Positions 6,602-13,096 of a stretch of DNA of 64,000 nucleotides are shown here, in pieces. The stretch is taken from assembly GCA_001311565.1 (NCBI GenBank), contig BBBM01000003.1:47085-111084 (forward strand). Direction: 5' to 3'. This stretch comes from Desulfothermus okinawensis JCM 13304 (GTDB taxonomy: Bacteria > Desulfobacterota > Desulfovibrionia > Desulfovibrionales > Desulfothermaceae). A program made the translations under genes and the position numbers. Position 1 is the stretch's first letter; each line of letters starts with the position of its first letter. A model generated the notes under the pieces. It searched no databases. It worked only from the letters and a program-made list of their open reading frames with translations, and was not told the DNA's origin.

Positions 6602-7486
6602 TTAAGGGATAAGTCTTATATGCATCCTGTGCACATGGATTCCGTCAATTGCAATTGGTCCAAAATTTGTGTCACCAACCTGGAAATTGCTTATCCTTAT
6701 GCTCCCCTCCATTGGAAGGTTAATCAAGATTTGAGCCAGATTGGTGTTGGGATCAACACCTACGTCCAGTGTCCCGGGATTATAGGTTGACCCACCATAG
6801 GGATTTAAGTCCCCAAACTGGAATTGTCCGTTAGGCTTCCATGTGGATGGATCAGTTGGATCGTCCTCTGGATTTGTGGTAAAGTCCTTGACCATGTAGA
6901 ATTTGTCAAAGTGGAGGGATTTATGATTTGGGGTGTTGTTTTCATTGTATTGGTATTTGTAGTCAAAGTTTGTAATCTCAAGGCCTAAATTATACTGAAA
7001 GTCCACACCATCTGAGTGTCCTGTTGCATAATACCTGTGGGAATATGGGTGTATTTCATCTATATCTAGAGATCCAATTTTCTTTTGACAAAAATCAATA
7101 GAACCTGCGTGGAAATCAAATCTGTGGTCAAAGTCATCTGCTACAAATGATACCATTGGTATTGAGTCGGGATTTTGAAATACATCTATAACAACCCCTG
7201 TTTTTAAGTTGTCCCCATTTGTATCCACATTTCCAGTGGATAGGGTCTCTAAGATCTCAATGTTATTAAAAAAAATAGTTCCATTTGTCCCATCTGGAGA
7301 ATCAGTATCCTTGTATCCAATATATTCAAAATTTCTATAGGTCTTGTAATTTGAGATCCCAATGGTAACCCCTGCCTGACCAACCACCCTGTCCATGTCA
7401 CCATCTGTTAGCTTAATCATTTTTGAGACTGAATTAATTGGCAGGAGGATCAGGAGTGTTAAAAGAGCTATTATTGATACTATCAT
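6602..7486 (-). CDS. Secreted GQAG-motif protein, paralogue A
   Basis: This is an open frame of 294 residues. A hydrophobic N-terminus (MIVSIIALLTLLILLP) is followed by a conserved segment, MIKLTDGDMDRVVGQAGVTI, that is shared with the next two genes. The rest is polar and rich in Asn, Asp and Tyr, with no catalytic motif and many predicted beta strands (my reading). The GQAG-V-[ST]-I element recalls proteins annotated as FilA-like or DUF6160, linked to pili in other bacteria; that assignment is from memory. It lies downstream of paralogue B behind a hairpin terminator and could be reached by read-through from the riboswitch-controlled transcript. Confidence 0.6.
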   Translation of the reverse strand: MIVSIIALLTLLILLPINSVSKMIKLTDGDMDRVVGQAGVTIGISNYKTYRNFEYIGYKDTDSPDGTNGTIFFNNIEILETLSTGNVDTNGDNLKTGVVIDVFQNPDSIPMVSFVADDFDHRFDFHAGSIDFCQKKIGSLDIDEIHPYSHRYYATGHSDGVDFQYNLGLEITNFDYKYQYNENNTPNHKSLHFDKFYMVKDFTTNPEDDPTDPSTWKPNGQFQFGDLNPYGGSTYNPGTLDVGVDPNTNLAQILINLPMEGSIRISNFQVGDTNFGPIAIDGIHVHRMHIRLIP

Positions 7487-7509: not shown

Positions 7510-7549
7510 TAAAAAATCACCCAGGGGCAGGGTAACCCCCAGGTGATTT
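7510..7549 (-). terminator. Hairpin terminator after paralogue B
   Basis: On the minus strand the arms AATCACC and GGTGATT enclose a G/C-rich inner stem (GGGG with CCCC), and a TTTTTTAT tract follows. It lies directly after the stop of paralogue B (7565) and before paralogue A, so it should reduce but may not abolish transcription of A. Confidence 0.65.
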
Positions 7550-7564
7550 TGTTTATCCAAAGAA

Positions 7565-8308
7565 TTAATGAGGAGCGATTTCGATCACACCGTCTAAGAT
7601 TGCCAATGTGGTCTTGCCAATGTAGAAGGTGCCAAAGTCGTGACCATTTATTGAATCTAAATTGTCATCATCTAGTGGATTGAGTCCACTCAAAGCAATT
7701 TCAATTGTCATATCACTTTGAACAATTTCCAGGGTTCCAAGACCGATCATAACGCCAGCGAAGTTAGTATCTGGGATATGTATGTCTTGAGCCGCTAGAA
7801 CGCCAGCATCCCATGCTGCACCTGCAGAAAGAACTGGCAATCTATCTGTTACGTCTATGGTAATTGGCTTGGCCAAGAAAGCAGTATTGTCAGCATTATT
7901 GGTGTAATCTACTTTTGCACCGTAAGTTCCTTGAAGTTCCCTTCCTATTGAATGAATGGCAGTTATCTCACCAGTAGTGCTATTAACATCTGCAGAAGTA
8001 ATTGCATTAACATTTACCATTACCTCTAAATCCTTGATTCCAACACTTGCACCATTTCCGCTGTATTGGGTATGTAAATAATTTGCCCCAGGATCAGTAG
8101 AGTTACTAGGAGCAGTGACATCCAATCCATCAGTATCAGTGTACCACAATCCCTGAATGTGTTGGTACAACTTGACATCGTCAACTGCAATTGATACACC
8201 AGCTTGACCTGTGATGGAATCCATCTGGTCGTTTGAGATGGCCTTCATGGCCATTGCTGAACCTGCAACCATTAGCAAGGCTGCTAACATTACTAATACC
8301 TTTTTCAT
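7565..8308 (-). CDS. Secreted GQAG-motif protein, paralogue B (riboswitch-controlled)
   Basis: This is an intact 247-residue protein with a clear signal peptide (MKKVLVMLAALLMVAGSAMA) followed by ISNDQMDSITGQAGVSIAVD, the motif shared with both neighbours. The mature part is acidic and rich in Asp, Asn, Thr and small residues, with no Cys and no recognisable catalytic site. It therefore looks like a surface or matrix-type beta protein. AGGAGG lies 8 bases before the ATG. The leader carries a cyclic-di-GMP-I riboswitch, which puts expression under second-messenger control and supports a role in adhesion, biofilm or pilus-linked behaviour. The molecular function is unknown. Confidence 0.65.
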   Translation of the reverse strand: MKKVLVMLAALLMVAGSAMAMKAISNDQMDSITGQAGVSIAVDDVKLYQHIQGLWYTDTDGLDVTAPSNSTDPGANYLHTQYSGNGASVGIKDLEVMVNVNAITSADVNSTTGEITAIHSIGRELQGTYGAKVDYTNNADNTAFLAKPITIDVTDRLPVLSAGAAWDAGVLAAQDIHIPDTNFAGVMIGLGTLEIVQSDMTIEIALSGLNPLDDDNLDSINGHDFGTFYIGKTTLAILDGVIEIAPH

Positions 8309-8316
8309 AAGATCCT

Positions 8317-8355
8317 CCTATGATAAGAATTTGGTTTGAAAATTCTTACCATAGG
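8317..8355 (-). promoter_or_regulatory. Expression-platform hairpin over the Shine-Dalgarno
   Basis: On the minus strand, CCTATGGTAAGAATT (8355-8341) pairs with AATTCTTATCATAGG (8331-8317). This gives fifteen base pairs with a single G-U wobble and a nine-base loop. The left arm contains the 3' strand of aptamer helix P1, so the two cannot form together. The right arm covers half of the AGGAGG ribosome site (8314-8319). Ligand-stabilised P1 should free the ribosome site, giving an ON switch. Confidence 0.75.
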
Positions 8356-8467
8356 TAGCCCGACCAACCAGGTGCCTGCTATGTCCCCCACATATCTTTA
8401 GGCAGGTGCCTGGTCTCGTTGGCTTTCCGTCCCAGGGTTACCCCTGGTTTGGCTTTTTCTATGGCAC
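8345..8467 (-). promoter_or_regulatory. Cyclic-di-GMP-I (GEMM-I) riboswitch aptamer
   Basis: Reading the minus strand from 8464, the outer helix P1 is formed by CCATAG (8464-8459) and CTATGG (8354-8349). P2 is a perfect CCAGGG-GTAA-CCCTGG hairpin with the GNRA tetraloop typical of GEMM. The conserved joint reads GGGACGGAAAGCC against the usual GGGACGCAAAGCC. P3 pairs CCAGGCACCTGC with GCAGGCACCTGG around a two-base internal mismatch. The conserved 3' part GGGCTACC precedes the end of P1. The ATG of paralogue B lies about 40 bases downstream. The ligand is inferred from the motif, not tested. Confidence 0.88.
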
Positions 8468-8608: not shown

Positions 8609-9225
8609 TTAATTGCCTTGAGCCCCTCCAAAGTCATACCAGATCCCTGCATCCTGTCCCTGACACTTGATTGTTATGATCAGGGGATCGTGGTTAAAGG
8701 TGTATGTCTTTACACCTTCAGCCTGCCTTGGAAGATAACCTAATCTTGATAAACTCTGAAAATCTGCCTTTAATGTGCCTACCACATCTTGAAACCCAAG
8801 TTTCACTTCAACTAACTGCCTGTTTGCTGGATCATCCATGTTCTCAAACTTTGCCTCAAATACAAATCCATTCATCTTGAGATCAGATGTTGAATCTCCC
8901 ATCTGGACGTCCGTCCAGTTTTGGTCCCAACCAATGCCATTTCCATTGTCCCAGTATCCCATTTTCATTGAATCAATATCTGTATATGTCTCAACTTCCA
9001 CATTAAATCCCATATGAGCAATGTCATAGATTCCATCGTTTATGAGCTGAACACTTGAAAAACCACCACCTGTAATTTCATTTAACTGGCTGTCTGACAT
9101 TTTCACCATTTTACTAAATCCATTTGTGAATACCAAAAAAAATAATCGCTACCTCAAATAGAACAAGTAAACCTTGTTTAACTGATTTTTTAAAAAAAAA
9201 TATTTAGTGCAAGCTTACTTACCAT
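8609..9225 (-). CDS. Secreted GQAG-like protein, paralogue C
   Basis: This is the third member of the local family. After a membrane or signal segment (QGLLVLFEVAIIFLVFTNG, reconstructed) it has MVKMSDSQLNEITGGGFSSV, equivalent to the GQAG segment of A and B but with GGG in place of GQAG. The ATG at 9225 joins the main frame after two corrections in T/A runs (near 9135 and 9190). The rest, about 165 residues, is polar with many aromatic residues. No riboswitch is visible upstream of it. Its stop at 8609 is about 140 bases before the riboswitch of paralogue B. Confidence 0.5.
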
Positions 9226-9401: not shown

Positions 9402-10781
9402 TTATTTTCCTATGCAAAAATTTGAAAAGACCTTATCTAAGACATCTTCTGTTGTGATTTCCCCGGTTATTTCCTTTAAACATTTTACTGTATTTTCAAG
9501 GTGTGTGTAAATCAGGTCAACCTCATACCAGGAAGATAGCAGGCTCAAGAGGTTGGTGAGTTCCTCTTTTGCCTCTTCCAGGTGTTTTGCCTGTCTCATA
9601 TTTGGGACTATTTCATCTTGTGGGGGCTCCATGTGGTCCCCCATTATTTTTCTGGCAATAGCCTTTATTAGGTCATTTATGTTTTCTCCCATCTTTGCAC
9701 TGACTTTTATTACCTCAATCCCTTTTTGTTCAAAAAAAATCAATTTGATCTGTCTTGTGGTCGTATTTGGGCAAATCAATTTTATTTGCAACCCCGAGTA
9801 TTTTGTCCTTTGGTTTTAAGGACACAATTTCCTTTACATCTGATGATATCTGAGAGCAGATATCAAACACAACCAGGATAAGGTCTGCCTCTTTTATGAG
9901 TTCAATTCCCCTTTTTACCCCAATTATCTCTATTTGGTCCTGGGACCTTCTAATCCCAGCAGTATCAATTATTTTAACAGGGATTCCTTCTATATTTATC
10001 ACATCTTCAATAAAGTCCCTTGTGGTTCCTGGGATTGGAGTAACTATGGCCCGCTCTTTTCCCAGGATTGTGTTTAATATGGAGGATTTACCAGCATTGA
10101 CTTCACCACACAATACCACCTTTGCCCCATAAACCATTGGGGAATACCTTTTGTTGTTTTCAATTAAGTAGTCTATTTCACTTAAGATAGATACAATCTC
10201 TTTCTTTATGTTATTGGGATCAAATTCATCTACATCTTCATCAAAGTCCATTTCTGAAACAATCCTGGCCATTATGTTTTCCAGCTTTTCTTTTATTGAG
10301 TCAATTTTTTTCTTTAAGGGCTCCACCAAGCTTGTTGGATGCAGAGAGAAGTCCCATATCTGACTTGCAGGATATTATCTCATAAATTGCCTCTGCCTTA
10401 GACAGGTCTATTTTGTTGTTAAGATAGGCCCTCATGGTAAACTCACCTGGCCTGGCCAGCCTGGCTCCCCTTTTTATGACTTCTTCAAGCACTTTTTTTT
10501 ACAACAATAGGGCCTCCGTGGCAGTTTATCTCAAATACATCTTCACCTGTATATGACCCAGGGCCAGGCATATAGCTCACCAGGACTTCATCTATTATTG
10601 TTTTATTAGACGATACAATGTATCCGTGATAGAGCTTGTAAGGTTTTATGGTGGTGATTTTTTTTACCTGACTTAAATAGGGATTTACCAATTGATAGGG
10701 AGGATGGGCCGCTTATTCTGATTATTCCAATACCCCCCTGTCCCAGGGGGTAGATATGGCACAAATTGTTTCCTGGTTCAT
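9402..10781 (-). CDS. mnmE: tRNA modification GTPase MnmE
   Basis: MnmE works with MnmG to modify the wobble uridine of certain tRNAs. The start MNQETICAISTP lies at 10781. A folate-binding N-domain follows (YMPGPGSYTGEDVFEINCHG, GARLARPGEFTMRAYLNNKID). The G-domain has GEVNAGKSSILN (G1), DTAGIR (G3) and ANKIDLPK (G4). The C-terminus ends in the invariant CIGK. Frame breaks lie near 9735, 10315, 10495, 10665 and 10745; the last is unusual, a missing base in a C5 run. It is the last gene of the rpmH cluster, close behind jag. It is essential or important in most bacteria, so the breaks are suspect. Confidence 0.9.
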
Positions 10782-11477: not shown

Positions 11478-13096
11478 TTAATTTTTCTTTAACATCCACC
11501 ACTGCTGAATTATTGACAAGATGTTGTTTGTAATAAAATAGACCACCAGGCCAGATGGGAAGTTTAAAAACAGAAAAGTCAAAAATATAGGCATAAGGAG
11601 CATTAGTTTGGCCTGGGTTGGATCCCCGGAGGTTGGGGTCATCTTCTGTTGTATAAACATGGTGATGCCCATAAATATTGGTGTAATGTATAGGGGATCC
11701 TTTGCAGAGAGATCAGCTAGCCACACAATGTTGGTAAATGGCAAATGATAGATAAATGGTGAATGCCTGAGCTCAATTGCGCTTAACAGTGCCTCATAAA
11801 GGGCTATAAATACAGGGATTTGAAGGAGCATTGGGACACATCCACCAGCTGGATTGATTTTATAGGTCTTATATAGCCGCATCATTTCTTCGTTTAGCTT
11901 CTGCTTGTCGTCTTTGTATTTTTCCTTTAGCTGCTGCATAAGGGGTTGGATCTTTTTCATCTGCTCCATGGACTTGTAGCTTTTATGGGACAGGGGCCAA
12001 AACAGTATCTTGATCACAATTGTGAGGATTATAATGGCAATTCCATAGTTGTGGGTGTATTTATAGAAATAATTAAGGGCAATGACCAGGGGTTTTGCAA
12101 GGAAATCCAGCCAGCCATAGTTAATTGCAGCACCTAGGTTGTTTGGTAATTTTTCTAAATACCTGGCCTTTTTTTGGACCAATGTAGTAAACGTTTTTAA
12201 GGGATTTACCTTTGCCTGGTGGAAGGGATATTTTTGACTCCACAGCCACTCTGTATGCACCATCTTCTAGTTTTGCCTTAAGGATGTGTGATCCAGTAAT
12301 TGGAACAACAGATAAAAGAAAATAGTTGTCCTCAATACCTGCCCAATTAATGGGCTGTTTTACCTCAATTCCAGGTCCCAGCTTCTTTTTCTTGTATTCC
12401 TTCTCCAGCTTCTTTTCTTTTGTGTAATACACAATTTGCTTTTTGTTGAATCTGGATGCGTGTTCAGATTCAGAGGGAGCTGCAATACATATTCCAACTA
12501 TTCCAGTAAGTGGATGGTCAGATGTGTTGTACACATCTAATTCTTCATCTATCCTGTAGCTATCTCCATGGAAGGTGAGTTTTCTTGAGATAAGTGTGCT
12601 GTCTAGTCTGGCTTTAAAGGTGAGTGTGGTGGTTTCATTTTCTGCTAGCTTTTGGGAAGTTCCCGAATATTCCCATTTTATAACCTTCCATGTGGGGTTG
12701 TAATTAAACAAGATGCCAAGGGGACCTTTTCCCAATATGTTTCTTGTTATCAAAAAGACATTTTTTTGAATCTGGCCTTATTGAGTTTTTGTAATGGGTA
12801 AGTTCAAATTCCTCAAAGATTCCACCCTGGGAATTTATCCTGGCAATGTATTTGGGGGTTTCAATAGTTAAGGTCTCACCCTTAGAATAGCTGTAGTTTC
12901 CATCTGTTACCTCAGAGATAGACAAAGTTTTTGAATCATTTTTCACCTGAGCCCTATCTTGACTTTTTACTATATTGTTCGTGCTGTTGTTCTTCACACT
13001 CTGTTTTGGTGGCGGAAAAAGGATATTCCAAACCACCAATACCAACACAGTAAGTCCCAATGCCAACATGAGCCTTGTGTTTTCATTATTGTCCAC
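11478..13096 (-). CDS. yidC: Membrane protein insertase YidC
   Basis: YidC inserts and folds inner-membrane proteins alone or with SecYEG. The N-terminus has one membrane segment ([20 protein letters not shown]) and a Gram-negative-type large periplasmic domain. The 60KD_IMP core has [20 protein letters not shown], the coiled-coil loop [20 protein letters not shown], and several further membrane segments ending in [20 protein letters not shown]. Frame breaks lie near 12760 and 12165. The start overlaps the end of yidD. The corrected length of about 538 residues fits a proteobacterial YidC. Confidence 0.92.

Follow-up and report, generated by a model that had tools for sequence, protein, structure and literature searches.

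Among the described riboswitches, Vc2 of Vibrio cholerae has the aptamer class of the leader reported here and is likewise a translational, P1-centred element. Its ligand-contacting residues are given as G20, A47 and C92 in the available part of PMC4744006, and the available part of PMC9262584 cites it as an OFF switch, unlike the sign that we favor here. Vc1, which lies before gbpA in the same species, is also a c-di-GMP-I element and positively regulates an attachment-protein gene; according to the accessible text of PMC4744006, however, it is without an apparent anti-Shine-Dalgarno sequence or terminator, and its mechanism is unclear. For the pilM riboswitch of Geobacter metallireducens, a transcriptional ON switch, the available part of PMC9262584 says that ligand binding keeps a competing hairpin from forming, as we propose for our leader; pilM has a terminator and responds to cGAMP, whereas the leader combines a Shine-Dalgarno (SD) hairpin with a G at the specificity position. 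The selective position is G for c-di-GMP and A for c-AMP-GMP in the available part of a survey (PMC9481103), which counts arrays of c-di-GMP-I aptamers as 347 doublets and 12 triplets and in that part mentions no quadruplet. No c-di-GMP riboswitch paper using the term "anti-Shine-Dalgarno" was found within the PMC literature, a scope that does not establish absence in print. On the protein side, the Fil system (FilA to FilD in NCBIfam) is related by score to Fap amyloid export (FapD, FapF), and FilF of A. baumannii is described as over-expressed in pellicles in the available part of PMC3203104.

The leader lies on the minus strand of the window, by which we mean the whole 64-kb stretch of DNA that was analyzed. 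Its aptamer comprises the following elements, for which the placing of Vc2 numbers on the model is presumptive.

8351 to 8463, minus strand: c-di-GMP-I aptamer (RF01051; cmscan, 54.6 bits, E 6.4e-8)
8459 to 8466, minus strand: P1 5′ strand, UGCCAUAG, eight pairs with 8354-8347; identical in the sister genome
8347 to 8354, minus strand: P1 3′ strand, CUAUGGUA, the switch strand common to P1 and the SD hairpin (folding)
8432 to 8447, minus strand: P2 stem CCAGGG-GUAA-CCCUGG, with the GUAA tetraloop at 8441-8438 (sequence and CM alignment)
8453, minus strand: G at the position that we take to be Vc2 G20, which separates c-di-GMP from cGAMP specificity (CM alignment)
8426, minus strand: A at the presumed Vc2 A47 position (CM alignment)
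8355, minus strand: C at the presumed Vc2 C92 position, paired to SD nucleotide G8317 in the hairpin (CM alignment and folding)

When the whole window was searched with cmscan, the RF01051 match at 8463-8351 (-) was the only Rfam match above any gathering score (35 for this family). A sequence-only reading had recognized a GEMM-I aptamer with P1, P2 (GTAA) and P3, and the covariance search confirmed it; the P1 3′ strand given in that reading, 8349-8354, is the core of a longer strand, since P1 pairs UGCCAUAG with CUAUGGUA over eight positions (8466-8459 with 8354-8347). As in RF01051 generally, there are P1, P2 and P3, a GNRA loop on P2, and the nucleotides presumed to contact the ligand (G20, A47 and C92). 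The leader departs from the family in a long distal extension of P3, in the deletion from the CM alignment of the model positions around the usual P3 tetraloop receptor, in a swapped pair, C-G, at what we take to be G21-C46, and in an SD hairpin built on C92-C93. From these letters, the ligand would be c-di-GMP. Within the P3 extension (8410-8370, minus strand), GGCACCT occurs twice (8410-8404 and 8376-8370); the window has the complementary AGGTGCC at 8469-8463, where it overlaps P1, and the complementarity is incomplete in the sister genome.

Downstream of the aptamer, folding of 8480-8270 gave a 16-pair hairpin (one G-U) of 8355-8340 with 8332-8317, at −17.4 kcal/mol and with pair probabilities of 0.84 to 1.00.

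8340 to 8355, minus strand: left arm of the 16-pair SD hairpin (folding; same letters in the sister genome)
8333 to 8339, minus strand: hairpin loop (folding)
8317 to 8332, minus strand: right arm of the SD hairpin, over AGG of AGGAGG (folding; same letters in the sister genome)
8314 to 8319, minus strand: Shine-Dalgarno AGGAGG, 5 nt before the AUG (sequence)
8305 to 8323, minus strand: rival SD-AUG hairpin UCAUAGGA-GGA-UCUUAUGA, available when P1 forms (−5.6 kcal/mol alone; −2.9 in the version of the sister genome)

The hairpin proposed from sequence alone, with 15 pairs over half of the SD, is real, but those 15 pairs reach only AG; it is the 16th, closing pair C8355-G8317, the one involving C92, that brings in AGG. 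Thus, A8319, G8318 and G8317 are paired, three of the six SD nucleotides (AGGAGG 8319-8314; AUG at 8308), and the other AGG and the start codon are formally unpaired, so that "sequestered" would be too strong a word for the whole ribosome site. The left arm holds the entire P1 3′ strand 8354-8347 together with C92. The aptamer helix and the SD-covering helix consequently have a strand in common, as expected of a translational ON switch, and the aptamer in its bound form excludes the hairpin, which upholds the mutual exclusion claimed earlier. C8355 itself is a ligand contact in the aptamer and is paired to the SD in the hairpin. The segment from C92 to the SD folded at −18.5 kcal/mol, compared to −5.1 ± 2.0 kcal/mol for 2,000 dinucleotide-shuffled linkers, none of which was as low; the corresponding segment of the sister genome reached −19.2 kcal/mol, again with 0 of 2,000 as low. 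Since the CCU of the aptamer end paired with AGG of the SD in most shuffles as well (1,359/2,000 for the window), this pairing alone is weak evidence. The hairpin was rejected as a transcription terminator: the terminator scan lists none there and no T-run follows.

Both 16-nt arms and the eight P1 5′ nucleotides were found as exact strings in the sister genome (G003); by alignment, 31/31 aligned columns of the arms are identical, with one aligner gap column in the left arm. The surroundings have diverged: 170 of 226 aligned residues are identical in the protein, 44 of 81 fourfold third bases are alike, and the corresponding figures are 104/151 for the spacer upstream of the riboswitch and 25/39 for the distal part of P3. 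The identity of the arms amid this divergence points to selection on them, judged by the letters; as none of these letters changes between the two genomes, this pair yields no covariation. The full-length leader was found by DNA comparison only in the sister genome among 297 genomes of the class, the other seven matching genomes matching the aptamer part only. The contig search for the leader likewise returned the sister genome only, the plasmid search gave no match, and two genomes of the same genus (G001 and G002) had no match to the aptamer or the gene. Protein orthologues among 348 genomes of the order were restricted to the source genome, the sister genome and the distant G005; the nearest named protein is that of Desulfothermus naphthae (61%).

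More distant comparisons came from 28 DUF6160 loci of other families that were scanned. Two of them, each from a further family within the phylum, carry a c-di-GMP-I aptamer immediately ahead of a DUF6160 gene (G348, 54.5 bits; G528, 43.9 bits). At either locus, GG of the SD is once more paired by C92-C93, in a hairpin of other letters: CCUGUGGU with AUCACAGG in G348, and CCUCU with A.GAGG of the SD, with one bulge, in G528. The third nucleotide after C92 sits in an A-U pair in the window and the sister genome, in G-C in G348 and in C-G in G528, and two-sided compensation is clear at one pair only. Shuffled linkers were as low as the real hairpin in 272 (G348), 125 (G528 single aptamer) and 59 (G528 array, where the hairpin ends short of the SD) of 2,000 cases, and for the arrays of the source and sister genomes the hairpin energy was no better than that of shuffles (1,740/2,000 as low). 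The distant loci thus lend moderate support to covariation of the switch strand with the SD, because their hairpins beat shuffles only moderately and CCU-AGG pairing is common in shuffles.

We consider the leader to be probably a translational ON switch: by the folding predictions, P1 held by its ligand would keep the 16-pair hairpin off half of the ribosome site. Folding with and without P1 confirmed that the two helices exclude each other; it also put a weaker hairpin over SD and AUG in the P1 state and left half of the SD unpaired in the hairpin state. The earlier interpretation is partly supported, the expectation that ligand should raise translation being likely but not cleanly borne out by the modeled opening of the site. 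Upon P1 formation, the cost of opening the window from SD to AUG changed from 6.5 to 4.1, 7.7 to 8.1, 7.5 to 6.8, 8.3 to 7.6 and 8.1 to 7.8 kcal/mol for five 3′ ends, and from 8.4 to 7.1 kcal/mol in a second set-up with P1 forced, which amounts to a gain of −0.4 to 2.4 kcal/mol over six set-ups, with the wrong sign once. In the sister genome, the five 3′ ends gave 7.7 to 3.6, 7.2 to 4.9, 6.9 to 4.8, 6.9 to 4.9 and 7.1 to 4.9 kcal/mol. Forcing P1 lowered the cost from 6.8 to 4.9 kcal/mol in the sister genome and from 9.8 to 6.9 in G348, and raised it from 5.1 to 5.5 in G528; the site opened in the right direction at three of the four loci (by 1.3 to 2.9 kcal/mol) and moved wrongly by 0.4 kcal/mol in G528. 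The gain is steady in the sister genome and small or absent in the window, because there a second hairpin, UCAUAGGA/UCUUAUGA (eight pairs, 8323-8316/8312-8305), can cover the SD and the start codon once the right arm is free. The P1-state fold of the sister genome has another hairpin, AAAAUUCUU/GAGGAUUUU, over the SD.

This second hairpin is the basis of the opposite sign, which we regard as unlikely: an OFF switch, in which ligand-held P1 would free the right arm and let UCAUAGGA/UCUUAUGA close over SD and AUG, the 16-pair hairpin being an anti-sequestering form in which AGG and AUG are open. The window's predicted P1-state fold does contain the SD-AUG hairpin, and opening the AUG alone costs 0.1 kcal/mol in the hairpin state versus 4.4 in the P1 state (0.5 to 2.3 versus 3.5 to 7.6 kcal/mol for the last AGG plus AUG); Vc2, as stated above, is also cited as a translational OFF switch (PMC9262584, available part). 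However, a C-to-U change takes the SD-AUG hairpin down to −2.9 kcal/mol in the sister genome, where the 16-pair hairpin is unchanged, and a comparable SD-AUG hairpin is absent from the P1-state folds of G348 and G528. As a rule, hairpins at the start site have little effect on translation if they are weaker than about −6 kcal/mol, which also argues against an OFF switch. The ON sign is the better-supported reading in our models, though not a clean one, because the 16-pair hairpin is unchanged in sequence while its rival is weakened, because the SD hairpin (about −18 kcal/mol) is far stronger than that rival, and because a common platform in this order has the same topology with a terminator.

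The last point comes from 61 folded c-di-GMP-I platforms (59 of 66 c-di-GMP-I matches plus loci L126 and L129), which an automatic MFE rule divided into 10 terminator-like, 4 anti-SD and 47 with neither. In the 10 terminator-like platforms, all from genomes of the window's order, the aptamer 3′ strand forms the left arm, which is the ON topology, and both conserved Cs are paired in 7 of them. The four anti-SD platforms are the window, the single aptamer and the array end of the sister genome, and L129. The single-aptamer locus of G528 (L126) falls under "neither" by the MFE rule, yet its SD was paired to the switch strand in the folding of the shuffle test. Control by the leader would act at the translational level.

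P1 was 6.8 to 8.4 kcal/mol less stable than the hairpin at all four loci, which makes switching at equilibrium unlikely; the ligand would need to exert its effect ahead of hairpin formation. In ensemble folds of transcripts of increasing length, P1 of the window had a probability of 0.86 to 0.95 from 9 to 30 nt past C92 and of 0.85 at +33, falling to 0.03 at +36, where the hairpin had 0.90. The sister genome behaved similarly (0.93 to 0.98 up to +30, 0.57 at +33 and 0.00 at +36), P1 was weaker in G348 (0.35 to 0.82 until +30 and 0.03 at +33), and it was erratic in G528 (0.01 to 0.83 until +42, three P1 pairs being followed). That P1 precedes the hairpin, which takes over at +36, is consistent with a kinetic ON switch, and kinetic control has likewise been argued for other members in the available part of PMC9262584. 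The sequence of events that we propose follows from the folding. P1 (8466-8459/8354-8347) would form first, as RNA polymerase completes the aptamer, leaving c-di-GMP the next ~25 nt of transcription in which to bind P1 and lock it. If no ligand is bound, the right arm 8332-8317, once transcribed, would draw the P1 3′ strand, and with it the ligand-contacting C92, into the hairpin, so that the ribosome would lose AGG of AGGAGG; if ligand is bound, the right arm would remain free, and the hairpins forming over the site would all be weaker ones.

We think it improbable that the hairpin serves mainly in message stability or RNase protection, with the aptamer acting on RNA decay or Rho access instead of initiation. 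A long hairpin that stands immediately ahead of the site and persists in almost all of the ensemble would suit such a role, as would the example of Vc1, an ON element without apparent terminator or anti-SD (PMC4744006, available part), but in the window as in the sister genome the left arm starts at C92 and the right arm stops within the SD, neither of which a pure stabilizer needs. Least probable is an aptamer variant for another ligand, such as 3′,3′-cGAMP: RF03167 (c-di-GMP-I-GGC) was the best model of the clan when the small stretch was searched on its own (55.0 bits, under its cut-off of 59), some aptamers of related arrays pass the GGC or UAU models and one aptamer pair is swapped as noted above, but the G at the specificity position is of the c-di-GMP type (PMC9481103, available part) and disfavors cGAMP.

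The translational ON switch would govern a DUF6160 gene, in the following surroundings.

7565 to 8308, minus strand: regulated gene, 247 aa, DUF6160 (FilA-like), N-terminus resembling a signal peptide by eye (PF19657, 37.4 bits, cut-off 27)
7513 to 7550, minus strand: terminator-like stem downstream of the regulated gene (16 pairs with a T tail; consensus scan)
6602 to 7486, minus strand: second DUF6160 gene (PF19657, 46.4 bits)
8609 to 9136, minus strand: upstream gene with a related-looking N-terminus (EITGGG) by eye; no family match

The product of 7565-8308 is, from its sequence, probably a secreted surface protein; it scored 31.2 bits (E 1.5e-7) with the NCBIfam FilA model, far under the cut-off of 220, which leaves it outside FilA proper. 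An AlphaFold model from a 48-sequence alignment had a pLDDT of 78.4 and a pTM of 0.58, and Foldseek of this model against the PDB gave no match at E ≤ 0.001. Two neighbors of the same family had been suggested; 6602-7486 is one, while 8609-9136 has no Pfam or NCBIfam match and shares only the N-terminal motif seen by eye. Because the terminator-like stem 7550-7513 follows the gene, the riboswitch unit is probably monocistronic and ends before the second DUF6160 gene; coupled control of both genes was rejected on account of this stem. Between the upstream gene and the riboswitch, 8580-8562 (-) reads AAGGAGGTGATGTGAGGGG, kept in the sister genome, a strong ribosome site followed directly by ATG-TGA and thus a possible start-stop leader. 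MnmE and YidC (9402-10329 and 11478-12753, minus strand) are each split over two overlapping ORFs and are single ORFs in the sister locus L035. These splits are probably indel errors of the assembly, which is fragmented (G000; 2.77 Mb, 124 contigs, 43.8% complete), and may explain the 44% completeness.

On another contig of the source genome (C2), a four-aptamer array precedes a DUF6160 gene in whose vicinity are homologues of FilB (C39 peptidase, E 1.9e-29), FilC (FapF-like, in two pieces, best E 1.5e-21) and FilD (OmpP1, E 3.4e-74). FilB, FilC and FilD homologues are also found near the riboswitch-preceded DUF6160 genes of G003, G348 and G528, and in G348 the order of upstream gene, riboswitch and DUF6160 gene is that of the window (upstream genes compared by eye). 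All FilB, FilC and FilD scores are under the NCBIfam cut-offs; homology to Fil is clear from the sequences, but membership by these models is not. This context agrees with the surface component suggested at the outset. The natural reading of the sequences is that the regulated product would be a c-di-GMP-induced fiber or surface component, and its secretion may proceed via the Fil pore.

DUF6160 was present in 22 of 395 sampled genomes of the phylum. c-di-GMP-I aptamers stand directly before a DUF6160 gene in 10 of these (G000, G348, G415, G475, G525, G528, G548, G570, G629 and G700), and the other 12 have none in that place. The ten comprise six triples, one double, two quadruples (G000 and G528) and one single (G348); G000 and G528 also carry a single, and the sister genome, outside the 395-genome sample, has a quadruple and a single. 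The array of the source genome (L006:6531-6910; G000:C2:42530-42909) consists of four tandem c-di-GMP-I aptamers of 55.9 to 69 bits before another of its DUF6160 genes, and four-aptamer arrays also occur in G003 (L037 and L157:10425-10775) and G528 (L155:6184-6511). With four aptamers, such arrays are larger than the doublets and triplets given in the available part of PMC9481103, and the main text of PMC12452182 has no word beginning "quadr". In the triples (L189, L191, L192, L198, L200 and L202) and the double (L201), all in family f38, the last aptamer ends ~25 nt before the DUF6160 start codon. The first aptamer of 6/6 triples (L189 to L202) ends in GCCTCC, as does the third of the quadruples of G000 and G003 (L006 and L037), and CCUCC is complementary to SD letters. 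An array in G005 (L038, contig C63) has two aptamers and the apparent start of a third, running off the contig end. Elsewhere, four similar secreted-looking genes ~1.6 kb apart each have their own c-di-GMP-I riboswitch (L149, L148, L146 and L140; G422:C35), and c-di-GMP-I doublets precede small secreted-looking proteins of 116 aa whose leader is followed by an MTDMELA/LTDMELA motif (L197, G721:C84; L199, G383:C76).

We tentatively propose, at somewhat less than even odds, that the Fil (FilA/DUF6160) systems of Desulfobacterota might form a c-di-GMP riboswitch regulon with two gates: a single aptamer whose ligand-contacting C92-C93 serves as the anti-SD, as in the window, and arrays of two to four tandem aptamers that would gate one FilA-like gene steeply and cooperatively, the CCUCC end of an upstream aptamer being the anti-SD. 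G528 has both gates on one Fil cluster. The riboswitch class of the leader is known; the surrounding Fil regulon is apparently undescribed and is the more novel part. The leader offers a concrete candidate for a predicted ON platform of c-di-GMP-I at the translational level; if true, one and the same base would both read the ligand and hide the ribosome site. DUF6160/Fil export, itself poorly understood, would then be tied to c-di-GMP in Desulfobacterota, with the prediction that its products are made when c-di-GMP is high.
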